Of a DNA stretch of 64,000 nt, positions 7,375 to 44,437 are shown piece by piece. The stretch is from the NCBI RefSeq assembly GCF_017939745.1, contig NZ_JAGKQQ010000002.1, positions 620,001 through 684,000 of the forward strand, in the 5' to 3' direction. Within the stretch, counting starts at the first letter, position 1; each line of letters starts with the position of its first letter. The notes beneath the pieces are model-generated. The model was not told the origin of the DNA, ran no database searches, and worked only from the letters and a program-made list of their open reading frames with translations. Source of the DNA: Gemmata palustris (GTDB lineage Bacteria > Planctomycetota > Planctomycetia > Gemmatales > Gemmataceae). The position numbers were made by a program, and so were the translations under genes.

Positions 7375-7387
7375 CGCCCGGGCCGAG

Positions 7388-8002: not shown

Positions 8003-8062
8003 GAGCGGTCCCCAATTGGTTCCAGAATTTTGCCGTCGAAACGATCGCGTGCTCCGCGGACC

Positions 8063-10366: not shown

Positions 10367-10380
10367 CTCATCGGCTCCAG

Positions 10381-14704: not shown

Positions 14705-15070
14705 AACATCTCCTCGTCACCGCCCCATCCTCGGGTGGCACCGATTTCAGGGACGATCTCTTGCGCGCAAACTAACCTTTCATAATTTCTATTCTGCCCC
14801 AATCGCCCGCGACGAGTCGCGGAATCACAAGAAATTCTCGCGAGACGTCGTGGTCAGTCCGTGGGCACAACGTTGTTCCCACGTCACCTGAATTCACGCC
14901 AGTGGTGAGATCGCAAGCGCGCGAATCAGAAGGGCAGAAGCAGCATTCGTGCCCGGCGAACGGGGCCACACTTGCAAGGGTCGTGAACGGAAATGCTCTT
15001 TGTCAAAGCGCTTTCGGCAACGGCAGTTGAGCACTCGTGAACGCGGCCGTGCCCCACTTCACCCCGACAC
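14705..15070. other. Intergenic interval, no gene seen
   Basis: Frames here are short and have no family resemblance or ribosome-binding site. The interval separates the small winged-helix gene from the terminator of the S9 peptidase gene. Nothing else was recognised. Confidence 0.5.
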
Positions 15071-15106
15071 AAAACAAAAAGCGCCCCCGGGAAGTCCCGG
15101 AGGCGC
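15071..15106 (-). terminator. Intrinsic terminator of the S9 peptidase gene
   Basis: Read on the minus strand, a 12-bp GC-rich stem with one imperfect pair (15106-15095 with 15092-15081) and a two-base loop is followed directly by TTTTTGTTTTGT. It lies about 40 bases after the peptidase stop codon. Stem plus T-run is the classical intrinsic form. Confidence 0.85.
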
Positions 15107-15145
15107 GTCGTGACCATTCGTGCGCGCAAAATACCCGCAACGGGC

Positions 15146-18037: not shown

Positions 18038-18092
18038 GGCGTAGTGCCCTGGTGATAAAGGTGCCGTTTAGCCAGATTATCCAGGTTGTTGC

Positions 18093-18098
18093 AGAAGT
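18093..18098. repeat. Target-site duplication, left copy
   Basis: AGAAGT directly abuts the left inverted end of the insertion sequence and is repeated exactly after the right end. Confidence 0.75.
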
Positions 18099-18121
18099 CT
18101 GTACTTTCCGCGAAGTTATAG
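18099..18121 (+). repeat. Left terminal inverted repeat of the insertion sequence
   Basis: Begins CTGTACTTTCCGCGAA. It matches the reverse complement of 19558-19580 at 22 of 23 positions. Confidence 0.9.
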
Positions 18122-18177
18122 GCGGTTGGCGTAAGTTGTGGGGTCGGGAGTAGACGAGTGCCGGCCCGTCCGGGAGG

Positions 18178-19554
18178 ATGGCGTTACCACACGACCTCCC
18201 GACCCGAACGGACGCGGCCATGCCATCTTCGCATACTCCGGCCCCTCGGTGCCACTGGTTTTCAACCCTGGCCAAGGCTCTGGACCCGCGGTCCGGGCGG
18301 CGGCTCGCGGTCCTGTTCCTCGGGATCATCCTGACCCGCGGGCGCCGCACCCTCGCGGGTTGGATCCGGGCCGCCGGGCTGTCGCCCCAGTACCGCCGGT
18401 GCTACGCCACGGCCGCGGCCGTGGGGCGCCGCACCGAGCGTATCGCCATGCGGTTGTTGGTCGAGGTTCTCAAGCCCATGGTGGCCGGTGCGCCTCGGGT
18501 GGTGCTGGCCCTCGACGACACCCCGACGGAGCGGTACGGGCCCAAGGTTCGAGGGGCCGGGGCGCACCACAACCCGACACCCGGGCCGGCCGGGGGCCCG
18601 TTCGTGTACGGGCACGTGTGGGTGGTCCTCGGGTTGTTGGTGGGACACCCCCTCGGGGGGATTGTGGCCCTCCCCCTGTTGGCCCGCCTGTACATCCGCC
18701 GCAAAGATCTCGGGGCCATCCCCGGGCCGGACCGGCCCGAGTTCGCAACCAAGTTGGTGATGGCCGTGGACCTGGTCCGGTGGGCCCACGGGTGGCTGAA
18801 GACGTGGGGCCGGGCCGTGTGGGTGGTGGCCGACGGGGCGTACGCCAAGGCCCCGGTGCTCAAGGCCCTACTCGCGCTCCGGGTGACCATGGTGAGCCGG
18901 CTCCGCAAGGACGCGGCCCTGTGGACGGTGCCCCCGGCCCGCGATCCGAGCGCCCGCGGGCGGCCCCGCGTGTACGGGGAGCAGCGGGTGTCGCTCGCCA
19001 AGCGGGCCGGGCACAAGGGCGGGTGGACCACGGGCACGTTCACCCTGTATGGGAAGCCCGTGGAGAAGCGGTACAAGACGTTCGAGGCCACGTGGCGGCC
19101 GGCCGGGGGCACGATCCGGGTCGTCCTGGTGGACGAACCCAAGGGGTGGGTCGCGTTCTTCTGCACGGACCCCACGGCCTCCGTGGCCGACATCCTGGGC
19201 CTGATCGCGGACCGGTTCTCGTTGGAAACCTGTTTTCGAGATCTCAAACAGGTCGCGGGCGCCGGTCACCAGCAGGTACGCGGGGTCGCGTCGAACGTGG
19301 GATGCTTCCACCTGTGTGCGTGGTCCCTCACGCTCACCGAGGTGTGGGCCTGGAACCAGAAGGCGGATGAACTGGTGGCCCATCGGGCGGCCTCCCCGTG
19401 GGACGATCCGAACCGGCGCCCGAGCCACGCGGACAAGCGCCGGGCCTGGCAACGGGAGCTGCTGGCCGAGGAAATTCAGGCCGTTGTGGGCGAGCACCAC
19501 GACCCCGCGAGAATCCGCGCCCTCGCGCACCGGTGCCTGGATCTGGCTGCTTAA
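18178..19554 (+). CDS. DDE transposase (IS4/IS701-like)
   Basis: A 458-residue transposase (an inner ATG at 18220 would give 444). Catalytic residues can be placed as D in VVLALDDTPTERYG, D in WVVADGAYAKAP and E in RFSLETCFRDLKQ, the last being the usual helix of IS4-superfamily enzymes with the family's E and R/K spacing. The middle has VYGHVWVVLGLLV. The IS701 assignment rests on overall look and DDTP motif; the observed 6-bp target duplication is not the value I would expect for typical IS701 elements, so family is left open. The gene is intact. Confidence 0.92.
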   Translation: MALPHDLPTRTDAAMPSSHTPAPRCHWFSTLAKALDPRSGRRLAVLFLGIILTRGRRTLAGWIRAAGLSPQYRRCYATAAAVGRRTERIAMRLLVEVLKPMVAGAPRVVLALDDTPTERYGPKVRGAGAHHNPTPGPAGGPFVYGHVWVVLGLLVGHPLGGIVALPLLARLYIRRKDLGAIPGPDRPEFATKLVMAVDLVRWAHGWLKTWGRAVWVVADGAYAKAPVLKALLALRVTMVSRLRKDAALWTVPPARDPSARGRPRVYGEQRVSLAKRAGHKGGWTTGTFTLYGKPVEKRYKTFEATWRPAGGTIRVVLVDEPKGWVAFFCTDPTASVADILGLIADRFSLETCFRDLKQVAGAGHQQVRGVASNVGCFHLCAWSLTLTEVWAWNQKADELVAHRAASPWDDPNRRPSHADKRRAWQRELLAEEIQAVVGEHHDPARIRALAHRCLDLAA

Positions 19555-30012: not shown

Positions 30013-30158
30013 CCCGGGCGCCGGTTCGAGAGGTTTACAAGAAGCGCCATTTCAGTCGCCCTCACCGAGCTACGGGCGGCCGCGGCTCGGTGAGCGAGAA
30101 ACGGTCTTTACTAGGGCGCGATTTCGCCGACCGTGCAACCGCGCGGCCCGTAAGGATT

Positions 30159-33100
30159 TTATCCGTCGGTCCGGTGCTCCCTAATCAGGCGCAGGCAGTC
30201 CTGGGCCACCCGCCGTCCCGAAAAATCGAGCCCGCTACCCCCGCCCCGCCCGTCCCGCGCGCCCCAAGCCACCAGAGCGAGTTTGAAAAAGGCTTCCGCC
30301 TCCTCGATCTGCCCCGCTTCCATCGCGAGCAAGCCGCCCACCACGTGAGCGTTCGCCTCCCGGCGCAGACTCGTTGTGATCTGATGGACCTCCTCGTACA
30401 GCCCCTCCCGCACGAGAGCGTTGTGCACGAAGGTACTGGGGGTACCGGAGATAAAGGGCGTTGACAGTAGCGCCCGGCCGACATCGTAAGACGCCTGCGC
30501 GTGCGGGGTCGGCAAGCGACTCGGAACCCGTAACAGGGCGCCCGCGACGTTGCGCATCTCCGGGCCGGTGTCCCGGTAATCGCCGGTGACGGCCGCGAGA
30601 CAGGCCAGGATCTCGTGGTACGTCGCGGCCCCGACGCTCTTCTCCAGTTCCGGGTCCAACCAGGCGCGGATGTCATTTCCCCGGCCCGCCCAAAGGAGCA
30701 GGTCGAGCTCGAGTTTCGCGCCTTCCGGCCCGAACTCCGAGGCGTCGGACTTGAGAAGGAGCTTCAAGGCGCGGTCCGGCAACCCGGCCCCGGCCGCTTC
30801 GCGGGCCTGGTCGAGCGCCCGCCTCCCGGCGCCGCCCTCGCAGAGCGCCTCGCGGCGCCGCACTTCGGTACCGAGGCCCTCGTATTCGCGCTCGAGGGCC
30901 GCGAGCGCTTGGCGCGCGCCCTCGGGCGTTTCTCCGGGCTGCGGGCCGCGCGCCCGGGTCGCCTTGATCAACCCGTCCAAGTGGTGGAGGGCGAGATCCA
31001 AACTGCCGCGGTCCCGGTAGAGGCGCGCCAACCGCCCGTGCGCGGCCGCGGAATCCGGCCGGAGGATCAGAACCTTCTGGAACGCGGTGATCGCCTGCAC
31101 TTGTCGAATTCGGTCGAACGCCGGGAGGAGGTACCTCCAGGTGCGCTCCCGGGTCGCTTGCGCCAGCCTCAAATAAGCTTCGCCGAGCAGAAAATAGCTC
31201 CTCGCATCATCGGGGTTCTCTCGGACCGCCCGGCGGGCCGATCGGACGGCGAGCACGGGCGCGCCCAGCGAGCCGTCGTCTCGGCCGGCAAGAAATGCGT
31301 TCCACGCGCCGGGAACCCCGAAGATCCATTGACCGATGTCCGCCGCGCCCGGCCCCGGCCCCGGCGCGGGAGCGGCAAGGTTCCCGAGCAGGCTGGCGCT
31401 CTGACTCGCGAGCCACGTCGCGCGGTTCTGAGCATCGTAGGTGCCCCGTTGCCCGTCGAAGTACGCGAGGTACAGCGCGGCTTCGTCCTGCTCCTGGGGG
31501 GCGCCCGGGTTCGGGGCCGCGAACGCGCGCGCCCACGCCCGTGCGCCAGGCTCCCGGTCGGCCCCTCCGAGAGGGGCCGTGTCGCTCAAAGCGGGAGAAA
31601 AGGCCCTCCGCTCGGGTGACAATCGCAGGGGGGCGAACCGGTCCCCGGCGCCGCGGGCGGCCGGGTCTTGCCACCCGAAGACGACCGTTCGCCCGCGCAG
31701 GTACAGGAGGGTCCACTCGTCGGGCGCTCCGGCCAGTCGGGTCACTACGCGCTCGGTCGGCACCGCACCGCCGCTGTGGAGGATGAGGTAGCTGATGCCG
31801 CGCTTACGAAAAACTTCGCGCCAACCGGCCGCCCCCGGCTCACCGTCGCCCTCGGGCAGCAGCCCGGCTCGGACCGTTGCGAAATCGAGCGCACCACTTT
31901 GTTCGCCGGTTCCTTGCGCGCCACCTTCTCCGAACCAGGACCGGTAATCGGCCACCTCGGGCGAGAGCGCGACCCCGTTCTCGTTCGGGCCGAGCGCGCC
32001 TTCGCGGCGCCAGCGTTCAATCACCAGCACCGCATCGCGCAACGAATCATCGGTATCCACGGACCACGCCGGGCGCCCCAGCGGGCGCCCGGTCGCCCAC
32101 CCGGTCCAGCCGACCGCGAGTAGCGCGCCGGCCCCGGCCAACACAAATACCCACCCGGTGAACCGCACCGCCCGGCCCCAGCGCCGGCCCGCCCCCGGGA
32201 GCGCGGGCAGTTGGGCCGAAGCAAGGCCGAGCGCCGCGGTCGGCCCGGCGACGACCGCAAAGAGCGGAGCGACAACCGGCCAGCGGGCGGCCCCGACCAG
32301 TAGCAGGAACCACACCGGCGCCCAGGCGCGCGCCCCCCGGTCTCGCCAAAACGCGAACAGACCGAGCAGAACGAGGCCCGCGTAGCCCGCCCCGACGATC
32401 GGTGATCCGGTCCGGTACCACGCGGGCCAAAACGGTGAGGCGCTCGGCCCCGCCCCCTCCCACCCCACCGTGTGGGCCGGGGTCCAAACCGTCCAGTGGT
32501 TCGGGCTCAGCAGAGAAGCACCGAGGCCGATTAGGAAGAGTTCCCCGAGAACCCACGCGGCCGGGGTGCGCCCCCGCCACGCGACCAGTGCCATTGAGCC
32601 AATGGTAACAGGCCCCACTACGACCCAGCGGTCGACGTTCGCCCAGACCGCGAAGAGGACGAACACCTGCCAGCGCGCCCCCCCCGTACCCCTCGCGCCG
32701 GACTCGGCCCGGAGCGCCGCGCTCCGTAAGAGCAACATCGTGAGCGCCAAGAACAGGTAGGAAGCGACCCGCGGGCCGAGTTCGAGCCAGGGGCCGACGC
32801 ACAGGACCGTCACGAGGGCACAGGCGCCCGCGGGCGCGGAACGGCCCGGGGTCCGGCCCGTGCGGAACACCACGAAGGCGAGCAGCGCGGCCGCCCCCGC
32901 GTTCAGCGCCGCGGCCCCCGCCCCGCCCAAGAAACGGAACCCCGCATAAAGGGGGAGGTCATAAAGAACCGACACGTGCGCGCCCCGCGCATTCGGGGGC
33001 GAGAGCAACCCGTCGTCGCGAGCGGGGTGCGGGCGCCCTTCGGCCACGGCCCGCCCCCGGGCCAAGTGCGACCAGATTTCCGGTTCGCGCACCGGGGCGG

Positions 33101-33209
33101 ACGCGAGCACAACCGCCAACGCGACCGCGACCAGCGCGAGCCCCGACCCGAACCGACTACCGGTTCGGACCGGCGCGCCGGAAGGGAGGGGGGAACTGCC
33201 GGCACTCAT
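30159..33209 (-). CDS. Large membrane protein with C-terminal TPR region
   Basis: A 1016-residue protein. The N-terminal half has about ten hydrophobic segments, beginning SGLALVAVALAVVLASAP and including FLFLALTMLLLRSA-like and LVLLGLFAFWRD helices, in a layout like oligosaccharyltransferase/GT-C-type or O-antigen ligase-like proteins (EIWSHLARGR after the first helix). The C-terminal 400 residues have tetratricopeptide-like pairs, e.g. SYFLLGEAYLRLAQA, AITAFQKVLILRPDS and HGRLARLYRDRG. It is the second gene of a minus-strand pair, 40 bases after a TPR protein. A role in glycan or envelope-polymer assembly is inferred from topology only. Confidence 0.88.
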   Translation of the reverse strand: MSAGSSPLPSGAPVRTGSRFGSGLALVAVALAVVLASAPVREPEIWSHLARGRAVAEGRPHPARDDGLLSPPNARGAHVSVLYDLPLYAGFRFLGGAGAAALNAGAAALLAFVVFRTGRTPGRSAPAGACALVTVLCVGPWLELGPRVASYLFLALTMLLLRSAALRAESGARGTGGARWQVFVLFAVWANVDRWVVVGPVTIGSMALVAWRGRTPAAWVLGELFLIGLGASLLSPNHWTVWTPAHTVGWEGAGPSASPFWPAWYRTGSPIVGAGYAGLVLLGLFAFWRDRGARAWAPVWFLLLVGAARWPVVAPLFAVVAGPTAALGLASAQLPALPGAGRRWGRAVRFTGWVFVLAGAGALLAVGWTGWATGRPLGRPAWSVDTDDSLRDAVLVIERWRREGALGPNENGVALSPEVADYRSWFGEGGAQGTGEQSGALDFATVRAGLLPEGDGEPGAAGWREVFRKRGISYLILHSGGAVPTERVVTRLAGAPDEWTLLYLRGRTVVFGWQDPAARGAGDRFAPLRLSPERRAFSPALSDTAPLGGADREPGARAWARAFAAPNPGAPQEQDEAALYLAYFDGQRGTYDAQNRATWLASQSASLLGNLAAPAPGPGPGAADIGQWIFGVPGAWNAFLAGRDDGSLGAPVLAVRSARRAVRENPDDARSYFLLGEAYLRLAQATRERTWRYLLPAFDRIRQVQAITAFQKVLILRPDSAAAHGRLARLYRDRGSLDLALHHLDGLIKATRARGPQPGETPEGARQALAALEREYEGLGTEVRRREALCEGGAGRRALDQAREAAGAGLPDRALKLLLKSDASEFGPEGAKLELDLLLWAGRGNDIRAWLDPELEKSVGAATYHEILACLAAVTGDYRDTGPEMRNVAGALLRVPSRLPTPHAQASYDVGRALLSTPFISGTPSTFVHNALVREGLYEEVHQITTSLRREANAHVVGGLLAMEAGQIEEAEAFFKLALVAWGARDGRGGGSGLDFSGRRVAQDCLRLIREHRTDG

Positions 33210-33249
33210 GAACGCTTCCTCAATTCACGACAGACGGGTTCGCGCCGTG

Positions 33250-34542
33250 TCAGCGCAAGTTGGCGAGTTGTTGGCGGTGGAAGTCGGCTTTCCCAGCCGA
33301 ATCCGGGCCACCTACCGCCTCGAAATGGTCTCGCAGTTGTTCGTGGGCGCGGCGGCAGGTCGGTGCGAGCTTCAGCGCCGCGTGCAGCCAGTAAATGCCC
33401 CGCTCGTGGAGCCCCATCCGCAAGTAGATCTCTCCCAACTCGCACCGGAGCTCGGCGTTCGTCGGGTGCGCGTGGAACTCTTGCGTCGTCAACTGGATCA
33501 GCCGCTTCTGGTCCTTCTCGATCTGTTCAAATCGCTCGCGCGCCTGGGTCGCTTCGCTGTCGCGCCCGAGGGCCCTCAAACACAACATCCAGTTATAGCA
33601 GGCGTCTACGTTTCGTGGGTCACTCTCCAAGGTCCGCCGGAGGAGCGGTTCCGCAAGCTCCGGGCGGTCCGATCGGAACTCTACCATACCGCTCATCCAA
33701 AGATATGCGGCGGCCTCTCTCTTGTCGGGCGGTATCACCGCGAGTTGCTCGCGGGCCTCATTAGTCTTACCCAACTCGAGATACGCCTGAGCGAGCCCCA
33801 GGATCGCGTCGGCGTTTCCGGGCGACTGTCGCAACACGGTCCGGTACTCTTCGGCAACCTCGGTAAATTGTTTGTCGGCCCGTATGATCTCGGCATAAGT
33901 TAGGCGAATATCGATCCGCTCGGGGTCGAGCTCCAGTGCCCGGCGGAAGTCGGCGGCGGCCTCGCGCGTATTCTGCTGTTGAGCGTACCAGGTTCCCCGC
34001 CAGAAAATTGCCTCAACGTTCGTTGGCTGCATCTCGTTCCAACGCGAGAGAAAGCTCCACGCAAGGTCGCTCCGGTACTTCCCCATGTAGGCGCGAGAAA
34101 GTGATTCGAGGACCAGGGGCGTCAGCGGCCCCTCTTGAATCAAGTACGGGAGCAAATAGTTGAAGACCTCGTCGACCTCGCCGGTTTGCGCGCGTAAAAG
34201 GTACCCTTCGACCTGCTGTTCTTCGGAAACGCCGCTTTGCAGCTCCCGGCACCTCTGAAGGTGCTCCCGGGCGGTCGAAAAATTACCGGCCCGCCGCGCC
34301 GTTCGCGCAACGAGCAAATTAATATTAGGGCTATCAGGACGATACCGGAGCGCCTGTTGATACGCGGCCAGTGCCTTTGGGTATTGCTGTTTCTCGAGAG
34401 CTTTCGCCGCACTGCGCTCGTAGTAGTTAGCCAAAAGTGGTTTAGCCGCTGCCCACAGACCGAACGCGGTTAAGCCGAGCAAAAAACAGCCGAGGAGAAT
34501 TCGCATCACTCTACGGGGTGGCACCCACACGAACATAATCAC
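33250..34542 (-). CDS. TPR repeat protein with N-terminal membrane anchor
   Basis: A 430-residue protein. An N-terminal helix (ILLGCFLLGLTAFGLWAAAK) anchors it in the membrane, with the rest probably outside. It then has about eight TPR units, for instance KQQYPKALAAYQQALRYRPD, YLLRAQTGEVDEVFNYL and QTRE/AADFRRALELDPER-type pairs. An inner ATG at 34506 is an alternative start that trims 12 residues. It is upstream of the big membrane/TPR gene on the same strand with a 40-base gap, and both share TPR architecture, so they may form one complex. Function unknown. Confidence 0.92.
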   Translation of the reverse strand: MIMFVWVPPRRVMRILLGCFLLGLTAFGLWAAAKPLLANYYERSAAKALEKQQYPKALAAYQQALRYRPDSPNINLLVARTARRAGNFSTAREHLQRCRELQSGVSEEQQVEGYLLRAQTGEVDEVFNYLLPYLIQEGPLTPLVLESLSRAYMGKYRSDLAWSFLSRWNEMQPTNVEAIFWRGTWYAQQQNTREAAADFRRALELDPERIDIRLTYAEIIRADKQFTEVAEEYRTVLRQSPGNADAILGLAQAYLELGKTNEAREQLAVIPPDKREAAAYLWMSGMVEFRSDRPELAEPLLRRTLESDPRNVDACYNWMLCLRALGRDSEATQARERFEQIEKDQKRLIQLTTQEFHAHPTNAELRCELGEIYLRMGLHERGIYWLHAALKLAPTCRRAHEQLRDHFEAVGGPDSAGKADFHRQQLANLR

Positions 34543-34746
34543 TTACCCCAAAAAGGGGACAGAGCCGCCTTACTGACAATTGAAACGCAGAATTGCAGTT
34601 ACGAAATGAGCACGGGCTGACTTCCGGCGATCAATGTCGGCACTGACGTAATTAAAACAATCTTACGCACCAAAGATTTCAAGCCGAATCATCGTGCCCC
34701 GGTCATCCGCTCGGAGCACGAGTTCCACACGGGCCGAATCTGTTAT

Positions 34747-35328
34747 CTACTTTGTGACCTTCGCATCAAACGTGTTGTCGCCCCTCGATACCTTTACCGT
34801 CCATCCCGACTGGTTTGGATCAGAATACTTCTCGGGAATTCCGCTAATCAGGGGAAGTGTTTCTTTTTGAAGGCGGCTTGCTTCGGCGCTATTTTTCTGT
34901 TGTTGCGCGAGCTGCTCTTTTGCCTCGGGCGGGATGTTCGCGCCCGCGCCGGGGTTCAAGCTTTTCTGTTTGGCGGCATCGTCCCCGCTCATTTTCCCGA
35001 ACTTGGCAGCCATTCCCGCCGGGCCTGTTTTTGGAGCCGTTTGTTCCGCGATCGTTTTGAGGTTTCGTAAATCAAGGGACACTTTGACATCGCCCGTCGG
35101 GACGCCTTCGGCCGAGTATTTACCGTCGTGAATCTCAGCAACAACCGACGGCCCGCTCTCGGGGGTGAAGACGATATTTCCCATCGGTAACGGTTTCCCG
35201 CCTACCGTGACCGTCCCGGAAACGTTCCCTTTACCACCTCCACAACCACTAACGAAAGCGAAGAGGAAGAGAGACAAACAGAGGAATCCCCAACGCCGAG
35301 TCAGACGGGGGCGCTCGGAGAGCATCAC
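34747..35328 (-). CDS. Planctomycete lipoprotein with carboxypeptidase-regulatory-like fold
   Basis: A 193-residue protein with a lipobox (LFAFVSGCGGGKG). After the lipid-attachment cysteine comes VSGTVTVGGKPLPMGNIVF, the beginning of a beta-sandwich typical of the small lipoproteins that follow DUF1559 genes, and later DGKYSAEGVPTGDVKVSL. The middle is a charged, glutamine-rich helix (PEAKEQLAQQQKNSAEASRL). It follows the DUF1559 gene on the same strand, separated by a strong hairpin, which suggests different expression levels of the two. Both are probably part of one envelope function that is not known. Confidence 0.9.
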   Translation of the reverse strand: MMLSERPRLTRRWGFLCLSLFLFAFVSGCGGGKGNVSGTVTVGGKPLPMGNIVFTPESGPSVVAEIHDGKYSAEGVPTGDVKVSLDLRNLKTIAEQTAPKTGPAGMAAKFGKMSGDDAAKQKSLNPGAGANIPPEAKEQLAQQQKNSAEASRLQKETLPLISGIPEKYSDPNQSGWTVKVSRGDNTFDAKVTK

Positions 35329-35372
35329 GTAAAACCTCGCGGGAAAGGAAACAGAAGGTATGAAGGCTTACA

Positions 35373-35413
35373 CCAGCGGGATTTACAGTTTCAAAAACTG
35401 TAAATCCCACTGG
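35373..35413 (-). terminator. 19-bp hairpin between the DUF1559 gene and the lipoprotein gene
   Basis: Arms 35373-35391 and 35395-35413 pair with one mismatch around the three-base loop CAA. The stem holds GGGATTTACAGTTT. On the minus-strand transcript no T-run follows the stem, so a processing or stabilising role for the upstream mRNA, or a leaky terminator, is more likely than full termination. Confidence 0.8.
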
Positions 35414-35466
35414 CCGAAGTTCAATGAAGAGCGAAGCTGAAAGACTATCAAGTCGTCAGAGCGTGC

Positions 35467-36357
35467 TTACCAGTCACTACCAAGAACGCCCCCATCGGAC
35501 GGGTGGTTCGCAGTGTACCACGTCGCCGGGGTAATACTGGTTGTCACCGAGCGGACGGAACCGTCCAACATGGCAACCTGAACACCGGAGGCATTATAAG
35601 CGTTGGGCCGGTCCCACAGAGCTGTCTGCGGTGGCTGCGTCGTAAACACGGGGGAGGTGGTCGTCGCCAAGTAAGACGGACCGTTGCAGCGACCGCCGTT
35701 CGGACAAGCCGCATTATCCATCGAGTACCACCAATAATTGGTAGTCCCGTTTGGGACCGCGAACCCTTCCGCAAATGCGACGGTACTCGAGGTTCCATCC
35801 GAGAACGTCGCGGGGAGGCGGGGGCCGTCCCAACTGGTACCGGCGTTGGCCGGCGGGGTAGCGAACGCGAGCAAATTGGTTCGGTAGCTTGAAAGGTCTT
35901 TTGTGGTATCGTTGGTCGGATCCGAGGGAGCAATGTAAGTTTTGACCGTCCGCGCTTTGCCGGCCCACTGGAGCTGCGCGCCGAGGTGCCCCGAGGTACC
36001 CGTTGCCGCAGAATTGTACATGTTCCCCTGCTCAATGAACGGGAGCAGGTGGAAGTAGATCGGCCCTTCGGCCCCGCTCTGCTGCCAGTCGTTCGACGCC
36101 GCGTCGGTCCCCTTCGGGAAGAATCCATACGCCGGGGGGAGCCGCCCGTCACTGGTGTTGCTGGCCACGTTGTGCAGCGCCAGCGACATCTGCTTGAGGT
36201 TGTTCTGGCTGCTCATCCGAGCGGCCGCCTCGCGAACTTTCTGAACGGCCGGTAAAAGCAACCCGATCAAGATCGCAATGATCGCGATTACTACCAGCAA
36301 TTCGATCAACGTAAATCCGCGCCTACGGCGGCAACCGAAATTTGTGAAATAAAACAT
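35467..36357 (-). CDS. DUF1559 pseudopilin-like protein
   Basis: A 296-residue protein from the ATG at 36357 ([20 protein letters not shown]); the frame is open upstream but crosses the promoter. It has the prepilin-type helix with the conserved glutamate, then [17 protein letters not shown] and [12 protein letters not shown]. The body shows [14 protein letters not shown] and the C-terminus [11 protein letters not shown] with ending GGVLGSDW. It is followed by the lipoprotein gene. A good promoter is upstream. As for other family members, the role is unknown. Confidence 0.95.
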
Positions 36358-36492
36358 GGAAGGCCCTTCGGGAGAAACAAAGCCTTGAAAAAACGAGAAC
36401 ACGGCCGAGAAAATGCGCCGCTCAAGCGTCCGCAATTCGCTCAATATCCACAGGGAAATTAGTTCCAATTATGAACCGGCAAGGTCAGTGTT

Positions 36493-36520
36493 ATCATAAA
36501 TTTGCTGTGAAGGTTGTCAA
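36493..36520 (-). promoter_or_regulatory. Consensus sigma-70-type promoter of the DUF1559 gene
   Basis: On the minus strand, TTGACA (36520-36515) and TATGAT (36498-36493) are 16 bases apart in an AT-rich patch. Transcription would start near 36486, leaving a leader of about 130 bases before the ATG at 36357. It is the best match to the housekeeping consensus I saw in the window. Confidence 0.55.
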
Positions 36521-36593
36521 TACCAAATCGCTCTGCTGCGGACAAGGTTCGTTCCAGTCCGATGGTTCGGGGGAGGTCAGTTCACGGTTTGTT

Positions 36594-38385
36594 GGGGGCT
36601 AGCAGTGTTTCGAGGGCGGGATAGGAAATCCCCAACCCGTCGTCGACGCAACCTCAAGGCAGGACGAGCCATGCCGACGCCCCGCTTCACGCCCGAGGAA
36701 CTCCGCCAACTCCACGACCTCGCCCGGCAGTGGGCCAAGATCGTCTCCAAGCGGGCCTTCGGCGACGACGGCCCCGGACTCGACGTGGACTTCCGAGCCA
36801 TGGAGCAGATCGCCACCGCCGCGGCCCGGGGACTCACCGAGGGCACACTCGAACTGCTGCTCCAACAGCAGGCCGACAAGCTCTCCACCGAACAGCCGTG
36901 TCCGGCGTGCGGCACGCTCTGTCCCACGACGCCGCACACCCGACCGCTCACCGCGGACGGAGCCGAGGTCGAGCAGACGGAACGCAAGGCCCACTGTCCC
37001 GACTGCCGCCGGGACTTTTTCCCCCCTGCGGACGGCTCTGGGCCTGGATGAGCACGGGTACAGTTCCTCCGTCCTCGAGCGTATCGTCACCGCCGCCGCC
37101 CGGTTCGCGTCGTTCCGCGATGCCACCTTCGCCGTGCAGATGTCGCGGGTCGGCATCAGCGAGAGCCAGGTCCGCCGGCTGGCCCACAAGGTCGGGGCGG
37201 AACTGGTCGCCGAACGGGACCGGAAGGCGGTCGAGCACCGCCGCCGGCAACTGGCCTCGCGGACGGGGGTGGTTCCCGAGGTCGTCGTGGTGGAGGTCGA
37301 TGGGGGGCGCATCCGTACCCGCGCGGCGGGGGCGGCCCCTGGTGTCCACGAAGCCCAGAACAAGGAGGACAAGATCGCCGGTCTGGCCACGTTGAAGGGT
37401 CCGACGTTCGCCGCCGACCCGTGCCCCGAACCGCCGGAGTCGTTCCTCTGCCCCCGCCGGGTGCAACGTCTGGTGAGCCAGATGAAGGGGCACTCGGGTC
37501 GGGACGATACCCAAGAAACCCCGGACGAATCGACCACGGCCGGAGTCGAGCCGATCGCGACCGGGTCGGCCGGGCGGTGGTCACCGGAGAAGTTGGTGCG
37601 GACGTGTGTGGCGAGCCTGGGATCGAGTTGTTCGTTCGGCCCGTTGGTGGCGGCGGAGGCCCAAGAGCGGCACTTCTACGAGGCGAGGCGCCGGGCGTTC
37701 GTGGCCGACGGGGCGGCGTACAACTGGTCGATCCACGAGGGGTACTTCCGGGACTTCGAGCCGGTCGTGGACCTGTTGCACGTGCTGTGCTACGTGTACT
37801 CGTCGGCGCGTGCGGTGGGCGGGGACGAGTCGGGCGGGTGGCGACAGTACGAGGCGTGGATGCGTTCGTGTTGGAAGGGCCGGGTCGCCGAGGTGCTGGT
37901 GGAGTTGGACGGGTGGCACGAACGCCTGGGAGAGTCGCCGGCGGGTGAGGCAAGGACGGCGGAGGACCGCCGTGACCCACGTCGGTTGGTGGCCGAGGCG
38001 AGGTGCTACCTGAGGAACAACGAGAAGCGGATGGACTACCCGAGATACCGGCGTGAGGGGTTGCCGACGACGAGCAGCCTGGTGGAGTCGCTGGTGGGTG
38101 AGTTCAGCGCTCGTGTGAAAGGGAAGCAGAAGCACTGGAACCGCCCGGACGGGGCCGAATCCATCCTGCAACTCCGGGCGGCCGTTCTGAGCGAGGACGA
38201 TCGCTTGAGTCGGTACTTCACTGACCGATCCGGAAGCCCGTTCCGGAAACGGCAGCCAGTGGAGAAAGACGACACCCCAAACACGCAAACCGCGGCGTGA
38301 CCTCGGTTCGGGGAATCCATCCCTGGGCTGAACTCGTCACGCGATCTGAGTGATCTCGGGCCTGATCCGTCGTCAGGAGCCCCCC
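36594..38385 (+). mobile_element. ISKra4-like insertion sequence, ends tentative
   Basis: The region contains one transposase-type coding region in two frames. A possible pair of ends starts GGGGGCT at 36594-36600, repeated in inverted form at 38378-38385, but the longer arms do not match well and no target duplication was found. The boundaries are therefore uncertain by up to some tens of bases. The coding content is the secure part. Confidence 0.5.
36671..38300 (+). pseudogene. ISKra4-family transposase with a frameshift at a T5C6 run
   Basis: The start at 36671 (MPTPRFTPEELRQLHDL) follows AGGACGAG. The first part has the zinc-finger-like CPACGTLCP and CPDCRRDFFPP. At 37016-37026 the sequence TTTTTCCCCCC breaks the frame; in the other frame it goes on as LRTALGLDEHGYSSSVLERI, then VGISESQVRRLAHKVGAEL and DGGRIRTR, to a TGA at 38298-38300 after TQTAA. 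With five instead of six C the two parts would be one protein of about 540 residues. Catalytic residues are probably in the second part (VVVVEVDGG, FVADGAAYNW). It could be a broken gene, or one read by slippage. Confidence 0.85.
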
Positions 38386-38583
38386 ACCGACAATCACCCC
38401 ACCGTTTCCTCTGCTGCGGCTACTGCGACGCCGCGTCGCGCTCGACGAGGGGCACCCTCATCGATTTCATTGACTAAAAAATTCAGGAGGGCGGGGCGTG
38501 ACTCCGCCCCAGATTCTGTTACGCTGCTCGAGCACAATCGCAAGACCAGCACACGAAGCCAAAACCTCACCACCCGTCATCTC
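38301..38583. other. Spacer upstream of the multiheme cytochrome gene
   Basis: It holds the right end of the insertion sequence and a short hairpin GGGGCG/CGCCCC near 38494-38511. The frame of the cytochrome gene is open through most of it but not protein-like. No further feature was seen. Confidence 0.45.
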
Positions 38584-40542
38584 ATGTCAGGAATTCCACG
38601 CACCGGTCGACTCGTTGCGGCCGTGATGGTTGTTGGCACAACGGTGTGTGCGTGGTACGCGGTCTGCATCCCCAGAGTCCCCCCTCCGGCCGCCCTCCCC
38701 CGTACACAATCGGAAACCGGCGAACCCGTGCTCGGTCCGCCCCCGGCCGATCCGCGGCTAACATTCGCCACACCGTTCCGGAACGTTAAACCCGAAATTC
38801 AGTACCTGGGAGACGCGAGCTGCGCGGCGTGTCACAGTAAAATCTGCGCGTCGTATCACGCGCACCCGATGGGCCGGTCCGCTGCTCCCGTCGAAAGCGC
38901 CACGCCGATCGAGAAATACGACGGTGCGGCCAACAACCCGTTCCGGTCCGGGGGGTACCAACTGCGCGTGAGCCGCGGCAGTGGCGGCGTGGTTCACCAC
39001 GTGGCGGCAAACGACGCGGCCGGGAACCCGCTCCCGGAATACACCGTCCCGGCGAACCTCGTAATCGGCTCGGGCACGCGCGGGCGCTCCTATCTCTCCA
39101 CGGAATCGGGAGTGGTGTGGCAATCACCCGTGAGTTGGTTCTCGCCGGACTCGCGCTGGGACCTCTCTCCGGGCTTCGATCTCGGGAACGGCGGGCGCCG
39201 GCCGATCAGCCCCGGGTGCCTGTTCTGCCACGTCGATCGGGTCGAACCGGTTCCGCAAGCGCTGAACCGTTACCGCCCCCCGCTCCTCCCGCTCCAAGCG
39301 GCGATCGGCTGCGAACGGTGCCACGGCCCCGGTGAGTTACACGTCACGGAGCGGAAAAACGGGCTCGTGCCCGAAGGTATCGACACGTCAATTGTTAACC
39401 CGAAACACCTGTCGCCCGAATTGCGCGCGTCGGTGTGCGCGCAGTGCCACCTTCAGGGCGAGGAGCGGATCCCGCGGCGGGGGCGCGAGGTGTTCGAGTT
39501 CCGCCCCGGGTTGCCGTTCGAGCAGTTCGTAACGGTTTTCGTTCGGCCCCCCGACGGCGCGAACGCGAACCGGTCGGTGGGTCAGTTCGAGCAGTTGGAA
39601 CAGAGCCGGTGCTTCGCCGCGAGTGCCGGGCAATTGGGATGCACGAACTGCCACGACCCGCACAGAACCCCGCCCCCCGCCGAGCGCGAACCGTTCTATC
39701 GCGACCGGTGCAACAGTTGCCACGCGCGGAGGGACTGTTCCGCCCCCCAAGCGGACCGCCAAAGTCGGCAGGACAATTGCGTCGCGTGCCACATGCCCCG
39801 GACGGGGAGCGCGAACATTCCCCACACAAGCGTCACCGATCACCGGATCTTGCGGCGCCCGACGCAGCCCCCTGTGATTAAGCGCCCGCCCGCGGGCGGA
39901 TTGCCCCTGGTCGCGTTCCAGACGGGCCGCGACGGGCCAACAAAAGAGGAGCGCGAGCGCGACCTCGGTATCGCGCTCGCGTGGGCGACTGTGAAACTAC
40001 CGGCCGGCCCCGGGAGCCCCCAACGCGCGATCGCGGCCATCGCGCGGGACCGACTCGAGGGCTCTCTGGGCACCTGGCACGGCGACGCCGATGCCTGGCT
40101 CGCCCTGAGTTTCGCGCGGGCCGCCGGGGGCGACGCGGAAAAGCGATTCGCCGCAGCGACCCGCGCGACTCAACTCGCCCCCGGCTCCGATGCCGCGCTC
40201 GCAGAATTAGTCGAAGCGGCCCTGGCCGTGCGGAAGGACGAACTCGCGGAGGAGGCCGCGGCGAGTTGGGTGCGACTGAACCCGACGAGCGTTGAACCCC
40301 ACCTCGCCCGCGCAACGGTGTTCTCGCGGCGCGGGCAGTGGGGCAAAGCCGAAGCCGAAGCACGAGCGGCCCTTGGCATCCAGCCCCTCCATCCGGAAGC
40401 GCGCCTCTACTTGGCACTGTGCCGCCACCGCCTCGGGGACGCGGCGGGCGGCCGGAAAGAAGCGGATACCGCGATCGGGCTCGCCACCGCCCCGCAGCAG
40501 CGCGATAGAATGTCGGACTGGTACCTCCGACAAACGCGCTAA
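38584..40542 (+). CDS. Multiheme c-type cytochrome with C-terminal TPR
   Basis: A 652-residue exported protein. The ATG at 38584 gives MSGIPRTGRLVAAVMVVGTTV, a membrane/signal segment. Seven CxxCH heme motifs are visible: CAACH, CLFCH, CERCH, CAQCH, CTNCH, CNSCH and CVACH, with spacings reminiscent of cytochrome c554/NrfA-like proteins. The last about 180 residues are TPR-like (ALAELVEAALAVRKDELAEE, AEAEARAALGIQPLHPEARL). It is the first of three same-strand genes with a heme-bearing VCBS protein and a CRTAC1 lipoprotein. It probably moves electrons outside the cytoplasmic membrane; electron donors and acceptors are unknown. Confidence 0.94.
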   Translation: MSGIPRTGRLVAAVMVVGTTVCAWYAVCIPRVPPPAALPRTQSETGEPVLGPPPADPRLTFATPFRNVKPEIQYLGDASCAACHSKICASYHAHPMGRSAAPVESATPIEKYDGAANNPFRSGGYQLRVSRGSGGVVHHVAANDAAGNPLPEYTVPANLVIGSGTRGRSYLSTESGVVWQSPVSWFSPDSRWDLSPGFDLGNGGRRPISPGCLFCHVDRVEPVPQALNRYRPPLLPLQAAIGCERCHGPGELHVTERKNGLVPEGIDTSIVNPKHLSPELRASVCAQCHLQGEERIPRRGREVFEFRPGLPFEQFVTVFVRPPDGANANRSVGQFEQLEQSRCFAASAGQLGCTNCHDPHRTPPPAEREPFYRDRCNSCHARRDCSAPQADRQSRQDNCVACHMPRTGSANIPHTSVTDHRILRRPTQPPVIKRPPAGGLPLVAFQTGRDGPTKEERERDLGIALAWATVKLPAGPGSPQRAIAAIARDRLEGSLGTWHGDADAWLALSFARAAGGDAEKRFAAATRATQLAPGSDAALAELVEAALAVRKDELAEEAAASWVRLNPTSVEPHLARATVFSRRGQWGKAEAEARAALGIQPLHPEARLYLALCRHRLGDAAGGRKEADTAIGLATAPQQRDRMSDWYLRQTR

Positions 40543-40736
40543 GTGCCCGGGCCGCGATCGACCGCGAACGGATTTCGACCTGTCGAGTCCGAGAATGTCC
40601 GGCGGCACGAACGCGGACACAAAAAACGTTCCACACCATGTCCGCACGCACGAGCCCGTGAGCGGCCCGGAACCGGCCGGTACCGTATCGCGAACTTGAA
40701 ATGTGTGTGTTTGTATTGAAGGGCACTGGGCAATTT

Positions 40737-42311
40737 ATGCTTGCGACACCGCGCGGGCGCGTGGGACTCACCATTGTTCTTGTGCTCCTCGCCGCGATCG
40801 GGCTCGCGTGGGCAACGGGCGCTGGTTGGTGGAAGAAAGCACCGGACCCGCTGTCCGCGGACCAACCGAACGACGCGCTCCCTGCGGACATTGAGGCCCA
40901 AGTTCACGGCTTTTGTGCGGCCTGTCACCAGTACCCTGCTCCCGACACCTTTCCCCGCGCGCACTGGCGGGCCGAGGTCGAGCGCGGGTACCGATTCTTT
41001 GAAAAATCGCGACTCCCGTTGAAGCCCCCGCACCTCGAGCACGCGGTGCGCTACTACGAGGACCGGGCGCCGGCCGACTACCCGGCCCCGCCGGGCGCGC
41101 CCGCGTCCGGTCCGGCCCCGAAGTTTGAACAGGTGAGTTTCCCTCCCCCGCCCGGCTCAAAAACCTGGATCTCACACGTCCAGGCGGTCCGGTTGCCGCC
41201 ACCCGGCGTGGTCGATCCCGCGGCAATCGCGCGCGAACCGTTCACACTCGTCGCCTGCGATATGGAAGGGGGGCGGGTTCTCGCGCTGCGCCCGACCGAC
41301 CCGGCCCCGGCGTGGAAGACGCTGGCAACGGTGCGCAACCCCGCCCGCGTTGAGGTCGTCGATCTCGACCGGGACGGGGTCACCGACCTTCTCGTCGCCG
41401 ATCTCGGCAGTTTTCTCCCCACGGACCGGCTGCTCGGCAGCCTGGTCTGGTTGCGCGGCAAGCGGGACGGCTCATACGAGCCGATTCCCCTGCTCTCTTA
41501 CACCGGTCGCGTGGCCGACGTCAGGGCCGCGGAATTTTGTGGGAGCGGGAAATTGGACTTGGTCGTCGCCGTGTTCGGCCTCCACGACACCGGCGAAATC
41601 CTGCTCCTCAAGAACCAGACGACGGACTGGAGCAAGCCACAGTTCGAGCGCCGCGTACTCGACCCCCGTCACGGAACGATTCACGTCCCCGTCGCGGACC
41701 TCAACGGCGACGGCAAACCGGATTTCGTTGCGCTGATTTCTCAGGAGCACGAAACGGTGGTCGCGTTTCTGAACGAGGGCGGCGGCACCTTCCGCAAAAA
41801 AATTCTCTACACCGCCCCGCACCCCGGGTGGGGGAGCAGCGGGATCGAACTGACCGACGTGAACGCCGACGGGCGCCTCGACGTCCTGTACACGAACGGA
41901 GACATTCTCGATGAGCCGCACCTGTGGAAACCGTTCCACGGGGTCCAGTGGCTCGAAAACAAGGGCGATCTGGACTTTGAATACCACCGCGTCGCGGACA
42001 TGTTTGGCGCCCACCGGGCGGTCGCGGCGCGGATCACCGGCGGAAAACTCCCGGACCTTCTCGCGGTCAGTTTTTTGCCGGTCGCGAAATTCCCGGACCG
42101 GGACCGGCGCCGACCGGACGCGATCACGTTGTTTGAACAAGTCGCACCGGGAAAGTTCGTTAGACACCCCCTAGCAATAGGTGCGTGTGACGCCGTGGTG
42201 TGTTGCGCTGCGGACGTGTACGGGACCGGGCGTCCCGATCTCGTGATCGGTAATTTTGGCGCGCCAAACACCGACGCCCCCGTCACAATTTGGAAGAACA
42301 TGGGAAAGTGA
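40737..42311 (+). CDS. FG-GAP/VCBS repeat protein with one heme-c motif
   Basis: A 524-residue protein. The ATG at 40737 gives MLATPRGRVGLTIVLVLLAA, a membrane or signal segment; an ATG at 40701 would add 12 residues. Near residue 60 there is one heme motif, HGFCAACHQYPAPDTFPR. Then comes a beta-propeller with blades such as VEVVDLDRDGVTDLLVADL, VADLNGDGKPDFVALI and LTDVNADGRLDVLYTNGD. It follows the multiheme cytochrome gene by about 200 bases. The single heme plus propeller layout suggests a partner in an outer-surface electron chain, or a heme-containing structural protein; neither is proven. Confidence 0.92.
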   Translation: MLATPRGRVGLTIVLVLLAAIGLAWATGAGWWKKAPDPLSADQPNDALPADIEAQVHGFCAACHQYPAPDTFPRAHWRAEVERGYRFFEKSRLPLKPPHLEHAVRYYEDRAPADYPAPPGAPASGPAPKFEQVSFPPPPGSKTWISHVQAVRLPPPGVVDPAAIAREPFTLVACDMEGGRVLALRPTDPAPAWKTLATVRNPARVEVVDLDRDGVTDLLVADLGSFLPTDRLLGSLVWLRGKRDGSYEPIPLLSYTGRVADVRAAEFCGSGKLDLVVAVFGLHDTGEILLLKNQTTDWSKPQFERRVLDPRHGTIHVPVADLNGDGKPDFVALISQEHETVVAFLNEGGGTFRKKILYTAPHPGWGSSGIELTDVNADGRLDVLYTNGDILDEPHLWKPFHGVQWLENKGDLDFEYHRVADMFGAHRAVAARITGGKLPDLLAVSFLPVAKFPDRDRRRPDAITLFEQVAPGKFVRHPLAIGACDAVVCCAADVYGTGRPDLVIGNFGAPNTDAPVTIWKNMGK

Positions 42312-42640
42312 CGCGATCGCTAAAATCCGATGATTGCCGTTGAGAACCAACTCAGCGCGTTTAATAGGCCCGCGCACGGACCCAGCGGGTCATCATTTGG
42401 CTTTTCGGCGTTAGGATTTGGAGCCCGATGCCCAACAGTGCAATCGCATACGATCACCGCGGTTGGCCCGCCGTGAAAGCGAGTTCCCCTTTTACCCCTC
42501 GTCTCGCAAATCCTCCGAGCCAAGAACCAAATCCGCTGGGTCCGCATAATCCTGAACGCGCCACCCTGTAGTTCTCACCCTCAGTGCCCTGTTATTCTGA
42601 TTACGATAGACGGCACTTCATAACTCTCCGAGGTCATCTC
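42312..42640. other. Spacer between the VCBS and CRTAC1 genes
   Basis: About 330 bases with no convincing coding frame, hairpin or promoter. The start of the CRTAC1 gene is taken at 42641. Confidence 0.5.
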
Positions 42641-44437
42641 GTGTCCGAACGAAGTAACTCACACTTGAGGTCGCGCGCGACCATAGTGGGGATTTTCGCT
42701 GTCAGCGTTCTAATTGCGGTAGCCCTTGTCGCCATTCCCGCGTGCTCTTCTCCCCCTCCCTCGACCGCCACTGCACCGGCGCGGGACGAAGAGGAAGCCC
42801 CCGGTCCGCCGCCGTTCGCCGACGTGACCGCGACCTGCGGGATCGGGTTCACGTACCGCAACGGGGAGGAGGCCGGGAACTTCGCCATCATCGAATCTCT
42901 CGGGGGCGGGGTGGCGCTCATCGACTTCGACGGCGACGGTCTCCTGGACGTGTTCCTACCGGCCGGCGGACATTACGAGGGGAAACAGGTGCTCGGCCAC
43001 CCGTGCAAACTGTACCGCAACCTCGGGGGGTTCAAGTTCGCGGACGCGACCGCCGGCGCGGGTCTCGATAAAGTCGCGTTCCAGTACAGCCACGGCGCCG
43101 CCGCGTTCGACTACGACCGCGACGGGTGGACCGACCTGCTCGTCACCGGGTACAACCGGCTCGTGCTCCTTCACAACGAGCCCAACCCGGCCGGGGGCCG
43201 GCGGTTCGTCGATGTCACCCCGAAGTCCGGGCTGAGTGACGCGCTGTGGTCCACGTCGGCCGCGTGGGGCGACCTGGACGGGGACGGGTACCCCGAGGTC
43301 TACGTGTGCCACTACGGGAACTGGGGCTTCGAGACCAACCACCCCACCGACTGCACCTACAACGGCAAAACCCGGGACGTGTGCCAGCCGGCCAAGTTCA
43401 AGCCGCTCCCGCACACGATCTACCAGAACAATCGCGACGGCACCTTCACCGACGTGACGCCGAAACTGAAGCTGCGCAAGGACGGCAAGGGGATCGGCGC
43501 CCTGCTCGTGGACGTGAACAACGACGCGCGCCCGGACATCTACGCGGCCAACGACACGGACGACAACTTCCTCTACGTGAACCGCGGTAAGCCCGGCGAA
43601 CTGGTACTCGAGGAGATGGGACTGTTCGCCGGGGTCGCGCGCGACGACCGGGGGATCGCGAACGGGAGCATGGGGCTCGGCGCGAGCGACTACGACCGCA
43701 CCGGGCGCGCCTCGATCTTCGTGACCAACTACGAGAACGAGCTGCCCGCGCTCTACAAGAACCAGAGCACCGACCGCCAGGTGCGGTTCCTGCACAACAC
43801 GGTCCCGAGCGGCATCGGCGCCATCGGGGGCAATTACGTGAGTTGGGGCACGGGGTTCTCCGACTTCGACCTCGACGGCTGGGAAGACATCATGATCGTC
43901 AGCGGGCACGCGATCCGGTTCCCGACGAAGATCGACCGGCGCCAGAAGCCGGTCCTGTTGAGCAACCAGAACGGAAAATTCAAACCGCTCGCGACCGCCG
44001 GGTGGCCCTACCTCCGCGACCCGCACAACGCCCGCGGCATCGCGCTCGGGGATCTCGACAACGACGGCAAGATCGACGCCGTGGTGAGCCACCTGAACGA
44101 ACCGGTTGCGGTGCTGCAGAACGTGACGCCGACCGACGGCCGGCACTGGATCGGCATCAACCTGGTCGGCGCGAAGAACGCCAACAGCGTGGGCGCCCGC
44201 GTCGTGATCGAAACGGCCGGAGGGAAGCAGACGAAGTTCGCCCGGGGGGGCGGCAGTTACGGCACCACGAACGACCCGCGCCTGCACGCCGGTCTGGGCG
44301 CGGACACCAAAATCAACAAGGCCACCGTTTACTGGCCGTCTGGTAAGGTCGAGGAGATCGCCGGCCTGGAACCGGACGCCTACTGGACCGTTACCGAGGG
44401 CGGGCCGAAGCCCGAGAAAGCGGCCGCAAAACCGTAA
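42641..44437 (+). CDS. CRTAC1-family lipoprotein (FG-GAP repeats with ASPIC/UnbV domain)
   Basis: A 598-residue protein. The start is a GTG at 42641 with GAGG seven bases in front; a GTG at 42584 is an alternative. The N-terminus is a lipobox (LVAIPACSSPPPS). A seven-bladed propeller follows with calcium-loop repeats (LIDFDGDGLLDVFLPAG, AFDYDRDGWTDLLVTGYN, WGDLDGDGYPEVYVC, LVDVNNDARPDIYAANDTD), and the C-terminus is an ASPIC/UnbV domain with GRHWIGINLVGAKNANSVGA and GLGADTKINKATVYWPSG. CRTAC1 proteins are extracellular. It is third in the row with the two heme proteins. Its role is not known. Confidence 0.95.
   Translation: MSERSNSHLRSRATIVGIFAVSVLIAVALVAIPACSSPPPSTATAPARDEEEAPGPPPFADVTATCGIGFTYRNGEEAGNFAIIESLGGGVALIDFDGDGLLDVFLPAGGHYEGKQVLGHPCKLYRNLGGFKFADATAGAGLDKVAFQYSHGAAAFDYDRDGWTDLLVTGYNRLVLLHNEPNPAGGRRFVDVTPKSGLSDALWSTSAAWGDLDGDGYPEVYVCHYGNWGFETNHPTDCTYNGKTRDVCQPAKFKPLPHTIYQNNRDGTFTDVTPKLKLRKDGKGIGALLVDVNNDARPDIYAANDTDDNFLYVNRGKPGELVLEEMGLFAGVARDDRGIANGSMGLGASDYDRTGRASIFVTNYENELPALYKNQSTDRQVRFLHNTVPSGIGAIGGNYVSWGTGFSDFDLDGWEDIMIVSGHAIRFPTKIDRRQKPVLLSNQNGKFKPLATAGWPYLRDPHNARGIALGDLDNDGKIDAVVSHLNEPVAVLQNVTPTDGRHWIGINLVGAKNANSVGARVVIETAGGKQTKFARGGGSYGTTNDPRLHAGLGADTKINKATVYWPSGKVEEIAGLEPDAYWTVTEGGPKPEKAAAKP

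Follow-up and report, generated by a model that had tools for sequence, protein, structure and literature searches.

Three adjoining cytochrome, FG-GAP and CRTAC1 genes of Gemmata palustris and a larger, apparently exchangeable cassette with an oligosaccharyltransferase-like membrane protein

Introduction

Oligosaccharyltransferases contain catalytic acidic residues in their first external loops and a WWDYG motif. Planctomycetes have many genes of the DUF1559, CRTAC1 and TPR families, and little is understood of them. In the parts of two articles drawn on here, hydrazine-synthase-like clusters of Planctomycetota and others were found to contain CRTAC1 FG-GAP genes (Hagglund et al. 2025, PMC12758564), and the SBP_bac_10/N_methyl (DUF1559) pseudopilin genes of the Tuwongella proteome were found to be often flanked by signal-peptide genes (PMC8567305). 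In the present study, a stretch of 64,000 nucleotides of Gemmata palustris (contig NZ_JAGKQQ010000002.1, positions 620,001 to 684,000), called the window, was analysed for three consecutive genes named A (seven-heme cytochrome with TPR), B (monoheme FG-GAP protein) and C (CRTAC1 family), together with D, the gene of a membrane protein on the opposite strand.

The unit is a larger cassette containing D, TPR, lipoprotein and DUF1559 genes, and not A-B-C. The trio was read, with a probability of roughly 0.5, as one arm of an envelope cassette that is open to exchange and whose D would glycosylate the exported partners, the products forming a surface redox assembly. This reading is based on the observed gene linkage, the predicted fold of D, the co-divergence of D with its heme partner and an allele difference at one site. 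The genome of the window is G000, other G handles denote further genomes of the order, and L handles denote fetched loci. The genes were as follows.

38584..40542, plus strand: A, seven-heme c-type cytochrome with TPR domain (652 amino acids, ATG at 38584)
40737..42311, plus strand: B, N-terminal monoheme domain and FG-GAP beta-propeller (524 amino acids, ATG at 40737)
42641..44437, plus strand: C, resident gene of the CRTAC1 family with FG-GAP and ASPIC/UnbV, probable lipoprotein (598 amino acids, GTG at 42641)
30159..33209, minus strand: D, membrane protein with a predicted STT3/PglB/AglB-like fold (about residues 9-523) and C-terminal TPR (1016 amino acids; from the model and Pfam TPR)
33250..34542, minus strand: TPR protein with an N-terminal hydrophobic segment (Pfam TPR_19, E 7e-32; 68% identity to the G026 cassette copy)
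34747..35328, minus strand: small lipoprotein with an FVSGC lipobox-like start (60% identity to G026)
35467..36468, minus strand: DUF1559/SBP_bac_10 pseudopilin with prepilin N_methyl motif (PF07596 E 6e-26 and PF07963 E 5e-10, both over the cut-off)

Linkage of the genes within the order

A, B, C and D were searched in 102 genomes of the order at E limits of 1e-10, 1e-10, 1e-40 and 1e-20, and matches were found in 47, 33, at least 65 and 55 genomes, respectively. The linkage counts contained 99 A, 37 B, at least 148 C and 107 D rows, the C counts resting on the matches listed. Second gene fragments, contig-edge fragments and the weak A rows of G100 and G101 were omitted, and among the B rows also weak hits against giant FG-GAP proteins. 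In the case of D, some of the second fragments were retained, which raises the expected numbers only. The expected numbers were calculated with 2.8 Mb per genome, the smallest size among the matched genomes, and are hence upper bounds.

Of the 99 A rows, 17 had D at a distance of no more than 1 kb (at most 0.52 expected), and of the 37 B rows, 11 had D at no more than 10 kb (at most 0.73 expected). At a distance of up to 10 kb, C accompanied B in at least 7 of 37 B rows (expected at most 0.84) and A in at least 7 of 99 A rows (expected at most 2.2); within 1 kb, B and C occurred together in at least one case and A and C in none among the matches listed. The trio had been described in the earlier note as a three-gene module. 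In the neighbourhood search A was found to adjoin B in 2 of 99 A rows, namely in G000 and G026 only, which belong to the same genus, and this number was not above chance (P 0.12); the three genes are thus largely not neighbours in related genomes. All three lie within 10 kb of one another in G000 and G026. A three-gene operon as the conserved unit was ruled out by these order-wide counts.

Gene maps were made for 35 stretches by six-frame typing with hidden Markov models of eleven families, built from clusters of this analysis; since only these families were typed, an absent partner is weak evidence in maps and loci, more so on short contigs. The A-type cassette was found to contain A and D, in most maps together with DUF1559, lipoprotein and TPR genes and at times with C. 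The B-type cassette contained D and B, the fuller ones also two TPR genes, a lipoprotein gene and a DUF1559 gene, and often C. The window and G026 were mixed, with an A-type D beside both A and B. Partial maps were also found: in L157 only D and A were present, and in L104 and L108 A was accompanied by TPR and DUF1559 genes, though not by D. The three-gene module described before holds as far as its genes are concerned, and it left out the ISKra4 element just before A and the divergent minus-strand genes at 30159-36468, which belong to the same cassette.

A second D-DUF1559-lipoprotein-TPR-CRTAC1 cassette was found in the genome of the window (L145, G000:C1:1472000-1491900, at 6987-15261), the D of which groups with A-type partners, and a third, partial match to D was found at G000:C1:7505023-7507212.

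Predicted fold and divergence of D

D was found to contain nine hydrophobic segments in a simple scan, and a TPR tail. Its AlphaFold2 model, made from an alignment of 26 sequences, had a predicted local distance difference test score (pLDDT) of 83 and a predicted template modelling score of 0.84. The first rank in Foldseek was the oligosaccharyltransferase family (E 2.6e-4), and the top 1000 Foldseek matches were ranked with VIA-align. In this ranking the model aligned at residues 9-523 with the human OST-A chain 6s7o_A (Z 22.4, 468 aligned residues, root-mean-square deviation (rmsd) 4.8), with archaeal AglB (Z 20.3, 467 aligned, rmsd 4.7) and with bacterial PglB (Z 19.1, 431 aligned, rmsd 4.8), followed by Pmt4, DPY19, ArnT and arabinosyltransferases. 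The titles of the top 26 rows (Z 22.4 to 14.8) were all of entries holding an oligosaccharyltransferase or another membrane glycosyltransferase, and the model has the membrane fold of the STT3/PglB/AglB family. Conserved acidic residues were found at D/E44 (23 of 26 proteins), D84 (24 of 26) and D193 (26 of 26), which may correspond to the catalytic acids. On the model, D is likely a glycosyltransferase with a lipid-linked donor.

In the tree of the 26 D proteins, all 10 neighbours of B were found on one side (support 95/94), and the other side contained all 12 neighbours of A, the window, G026 and two unlabelled rows. The heme partner changed twice on this tree, which is the minimum possible; the mean of shuffled labels was 9.5, and none of 200 shuffles was as low.

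Replacement of the block beside C

Compared by blastn with the DNA of its relative G010, the window was found to contain 94-95% identity up to 30031 and 85% identity from 42614 onward, and the following block lies between the two points.

30032..42613, no strand assigned: block differing from G010, apparently a swapped cassette allele (blastn homology ends at 30031 and resumes at 42614)

The flanks and C were syntenic in the two closest relatives, G009 and G010 (85-95% DNA identity). The C protein was 86% identical to those of G010 and G009 at the same site, and the two-component genes downstream of C also lie in the 85% stretch. Inside the block, G010 was matched within B (70%) and over a short stretch of DUF1559 (76%). 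Between the same points G009 and G010 contained their own D, B, two TPR genes, lipoprotein and DUF1559. The D, TPR, lipoprotein and DUF1559 proteins of the window were 60-71% identical to those of G026 and 29-39% identical to those of G010, and B was 75% identical to that of G026 and 65-68% to those of G009 and G010. A was 70% identical to that of G026 and was absent from the site in G009 and G010. The right edge of the block lies at most about 30 bases from the start of C.

G092 has the gene order of G010, and so has G057 apart from an inversion of C; the recipient of the new block was hence most probably the window. A cassette swap would seem to account for the contiguity of A, B and C, with A and B placed beside a resident C. 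Among 19 genomes of the genus, the site, marked by the sdhB and HDOD genes, was found in G000, G009 and G010, and three more contained both genes on separate draft contigs.

The G+C content at third codon positions (GC3) was 0.62-0.78 in the TPR, lipoprotein, DUF1559 and B genes versus 0.85-0.91 in seven flanking genes. The lipoprotein and DUF1559 genes of the G010 and G026 cassettes were also lowish (0.70-0.79), and the codon scores of A and D were low in every copy checked; because the same low values occur in other copies, the composition is weak evidence of transfer.

Genes A, B and C

The three plus-strand reading frames were open where the earlier note had placed them, and the motifs and domains it had named were found, as CxxCH numbered seven in A, one in B and none in C, joined by TPR in A, FG-GAP in B, and FG-GAP and UnbV_ASPIC in C. 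The spacers of 194 and 329 bases are correct provided that the gene starts are correct. The claim of export agreed with an N-terminal hydrophobic stretch seen by eye in each protein, and that C is a lipoprotein is probable only: its ...AIPAC-S is lipobox-like, and better lipoboxes (VSAC and FSGC) occur in the relatives of C from G010 and G092. No terminator stem was found by scanning the spacer between B and C on the plus strand, the only listed stem (42235-42250) lying inside B, and the RNA fold of 42312-42500 was ordinary (z -0.46).

A matched Cytochrom_c3_2 of Pfam (E 1.4e-5), followed by a C-terminal TPR_14 barely above the cut-off. The model of A (pLDDT 83) contained strands between the first and second hemes, at 100-194, and eleven consecutive helices from residue 454. 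All seven CxxCH motifs were invariant across 20 aligned sequences, the window among them; as the motifs of A and B are conserved in their alignments, they are not due to chance. The match of A to PF13435 (cytochrome c554 family) reached 20.5 bits at a cut-off of 20.8, and 13 of the 20 aligned sequences matched at E 1e-3. A stayed below the cut-offs of TIGR03508 (DmsE-type decaheme; 43.7 bits, cut-off 192.2), with seven CxxCH and not ten, and of the MtrC/MtrF domain (22 bits, cut-off 30). In the fold comparison of A, the rows shown fitted the TPR half and no fold was identified for the heme part.

As a separate observation, L146 of the same genome (G000:C1:4784000-4803900) was found at 6203-14299 to contain open reading frames with five, four and four CxxCH on one strand and ten on the other, with PF13435 matches.

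C matched FG-GAP_3 (PF13517, E 3e-32) and UnbV_ASPIC (PF07593, E 6e-17), both over the cut-off. Further CRTAC1-scored genes of this genome were found in L147 (8307-11204) and L148 (6680-9516), each adjoined by a TPR gene. Downstream of an A homologue in L164 (G043:C20:55000-74900), three CRTAC1-scored reading frames were found at 8470-19341 around a reading frame of 1044 amino acids with five CxxCH.

B matched FG-GAP_3 (E 5e-24) and contained its CxxCH at residues 60-64, the N-terminal part weakly matching a diheme cytochrome c (E 0.0018). The two cysteines and the histidine of the heme motif were 96-98% conserved across the rows without a gap at these positions in an alignment of 105 rows, in which some genes occur twice; another alignment contained 60 of the 75 selected B reading frames, the window and G026. 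The propeller was found to contain conserved R258, H316, E339 and H401, which could form a pocket, and showed a weak likeness to aldos-2-ulose dehydratase (E 2.5e-8). An enzymatic role for B is therefore possible. No plasmid record covered B across more than 80% of its length.

The heme motif of B was variable. Among 30 fetched loci of the order, 14 contained CxxCH, 11 contained CxxxCH and five contained neither (four without the domain and one with a broken frame); CxxxCH was also found in L183 and in two loci titled Acidobacteria. For relatives of ImcH and CymA, CX3CH is described as an atypical heme motif in the part of the source drawn on here (PMC6295460). Across the family (L035-L060, L183, L196 and L199) the single motif toggles between CxxCH and CxxxCH several times. 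In the tree of B, the window and G026, both with CxxCH and both beside A, were found inside a clade (100/99) in which the eight remaining rows all have CxxxCH. This placement points to a reversion to CxxCH in the two, a single event that does not establish a link to A. The two kinds of heme site can be compared within one family.

Loci of B beyond the order

B loci beyond the window were collected by a pattern search of named genomes, and the best 80 of 88 were used, members of the order being included again. As control, 40 random stretches of 20 kb were taken from five genomes of the order, with the phylum not matched; the B loci had a mean length of 13.7 kb, shorter than the controls, so the bias runs against enrichment. 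By title, the loci were mostly from Planctomycetota, some from Acidobacteria and Verrucomicrobia and single ones from others, and several titles of metagenome-assembled genomes look misnamed. CRTAC1 was scored in 27 of 80 B loci versus 2 of 40 random regions (p 2e-4), TPR in 39 versus 3 (p 3e-6) and D in 9 versus 0. UnbV_ASPIC was found in seven of the eight CRTAC1-scored proteins put to Pfam, of which, according to their titles, three are from Acidobacteria and two from Verrucomicrobia. The linkage of B and C recurs in three phyla. DUF1501 was not enriched near B (11 of 80 versus 7 of 40). A, B and C were found together in two of the 80 loci, L188 and L204.

Other features of the minus-strand arm

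One further element was found between the two arms.

about 36573..38304, no strand assigned: ISKra4-family insertion element between the divergent DUF1559 gene and A (NF033572, E 2e-34)

The transposase is split over two frames in the window, and its match to NF033572 (119 bits) lies below the cut-off of 205. Six further copies with 99-100% identity were found in the same genome, and a degraded transposase beside A was thereby ruled out in favour of a recent ISKra4 insertion. With the element removed, the DUF1559 gene and A are divergent across a spacer of about 380 bases, given the right gene starts. The small lipoprotein is perhaps carboxypeptidase-regulatory-like, the match to PF13620 being weak (E 0.088) and below the cut-off.

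Discussion

The exchangeable envelope cassette was found repeatedly to contain D, a heme protein (A or B), one or two TPR proteins, a lipoprotein, a DUF1559 protein and often a CRTAC1 protein, the D proteins falling into two groups, each following its heme partner. The block of the window, with an A-type D, TPR, lipoprotein, DUF1559, A and a B, sits where two close relatives contain a B-type cassette, with the neighbouring CRTAC1 gene retained. D would take a lipid-linked sugar donor and glycosylate the heme protein, the pseudopilin or the CRTAC1 protein, and its TPR tail would hold the cassette partners. The pseudopilin and the lipoprotein may aid the export or display of these partners. The heme proteins and propellers would then make a redox assembly at the cell surface, for which electron transfer is possible. 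A shared cassette with an oligosaccharyltransferase-like D that co-diverges with its heme protein gives these gene families a testable role, the partner-specific glycosylation and display of surface redox proteins.

Several results weigh against this reading. Of the 99 A rows, 82 lacked a D at up to 1 kb, and of the 37 B rows, 26 lacked one at up to 10 kb, many contigs being short. Because no heme gene was recognised near the full D cassette of L145, heme may be optional. The pattern WW[DENQ]x[GAS] was missing from 25 of the 26 D proteins, the remaining one containing WWDLA; D is hence no typical enzyme of N-glycosylation, and it may act on a polysaccharide or be inactive. The 26 proteins of the D tree were chosen mostly for a nearby A or B, and two rows on the A side were without a heme label. 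D was found in few genomes outside the order, profile matches at E 1e-40 occurring in 14 of 246 genomes of the phylum, which were G000 and 13 others listed as the same class or phylum, the matches of these 13 lying mostly in the membrane half. Near B no enrichment was found for DUF1559 (30 of 80 versus 13 of 40, p 0.37), the lipoprotein (7 of 80 versus 3 of 40, p 0.56) or A (4 of 80 versus 1 of 40, p 0.46). The polarity of the swap was taken from the gene order of G092 and G057, and no more than three genomes showed the site.

An operon of A, B and C for outer-surface electron transfer or polymer oxidation, as first suggested, was considered unlikely. The three genes lie on the same strand, are all apparently exported and contain heme in two of three cases, their families also occur together in G026, L188 and L204, and the conserved residues of B with its likeness to aldos-2-ulose dehydratase would suit a sugar enzyme. 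Against this, A and B were adjacent in 2 of 47 A-bearing genomes, which does not exceed chance for the pair (P 0.12), and C has a history different from that of A and B. No partner of an electron conduit was recognised, a porin or outer-membrane barrel not having been searched for.

Equally doubtful was a serotype-like diversity region, in which the swapped centre would alter the surface coat, for example under phage or predator pressure, with the heme proteins as passengers. The replacement in place by a diverged homologous set, the oligosaccharyltransferase-like D at the centre and the GC3 of four block genes below that of the flanking genes would all be expected of such a region. However, the grouping of D goes with the heme partner, so that the heme genes do not look like passengers; at the site, the three genomes gave no more than two types of allele; and the low codon scores and GC3 of other copies weaken the compositional argument. 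Chance clustering in an ordinary neighbourhood of gene families numerous in planctomycetes, as might be thought from DUF1559 in 13 of 40 random regions and from the 91 Tuwongella immobilis proteins predicted with both pseudopilin domains in the part of the proteome report drawn on here (PMC8567305), is very improbable, as it is contradicted for D, B, C and TPR by A-D, B-D, B-C and B-TPR linkage far over expectation and by the co-divergence of D and its partner, a contradiction that does not cover DUF1559 and the lipoprotein.

Comparison with known systems

The gene set was not found described in the open-access literature searched. A more far-reaching reading, less likely than not, is that these planctomycetes have swappable cassettes, each with its own TPR-tailed transferase of the STT3 fold that is paired with a single exported heme protein. 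The cytochrome-bearing assembly at the surface would be glycosylated by this enzyme and be inherited and exchanged together with it, and such a surface redox system coupled to glycosylation would so far be undescribed.

The nearest system is that of the hydrazine-synthase-like clusters, in which a CRTAC1 gene adjoins those of heme proteins, cytochrome c554 domains and propellers being present in some of the latter; the heme follows the propeller there, whereas it precedes the propeller in B, and the part of that report drawn on here mentions no STT3-like protein (PMC12758564). Hydrazine synthase was not found in the PDB listings for A or B, for B among 34 chains at E 0.1 in a sequence search only. 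For the DUF1559 genes of Tuwongella (Planctomycetales), no cytochrome, CRTAC1 or glycosyltransferase partner is named in the corresponding part of that source (PMC8567305). The multiheme proteins of Geobacter and Shewanella (MtrC, DmsE-type decaheme) gave weak profile matches to A, which differs in lying under all these cut-offs and in its seven hemes and fused TPR. D resembles STT3, PglB and AglB in the fold of its N-terminal half and in the conserved acids of its membrane part, and differs in the lack of a WWDYG-like motif (25 of 26), in the TPR tail and in its heme-protein and pseudopilin neighbours. C matches cartilage acidic protein 1 (PDB 9etn) by sequence (E 6e-15), and CRTAC1/ASPIC-UnbV by Pfam, and differs in being bacterial, probably lipid-anchored and part of a cassette with heme proteins and D. 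The cassette is a new arrangement of known parts.

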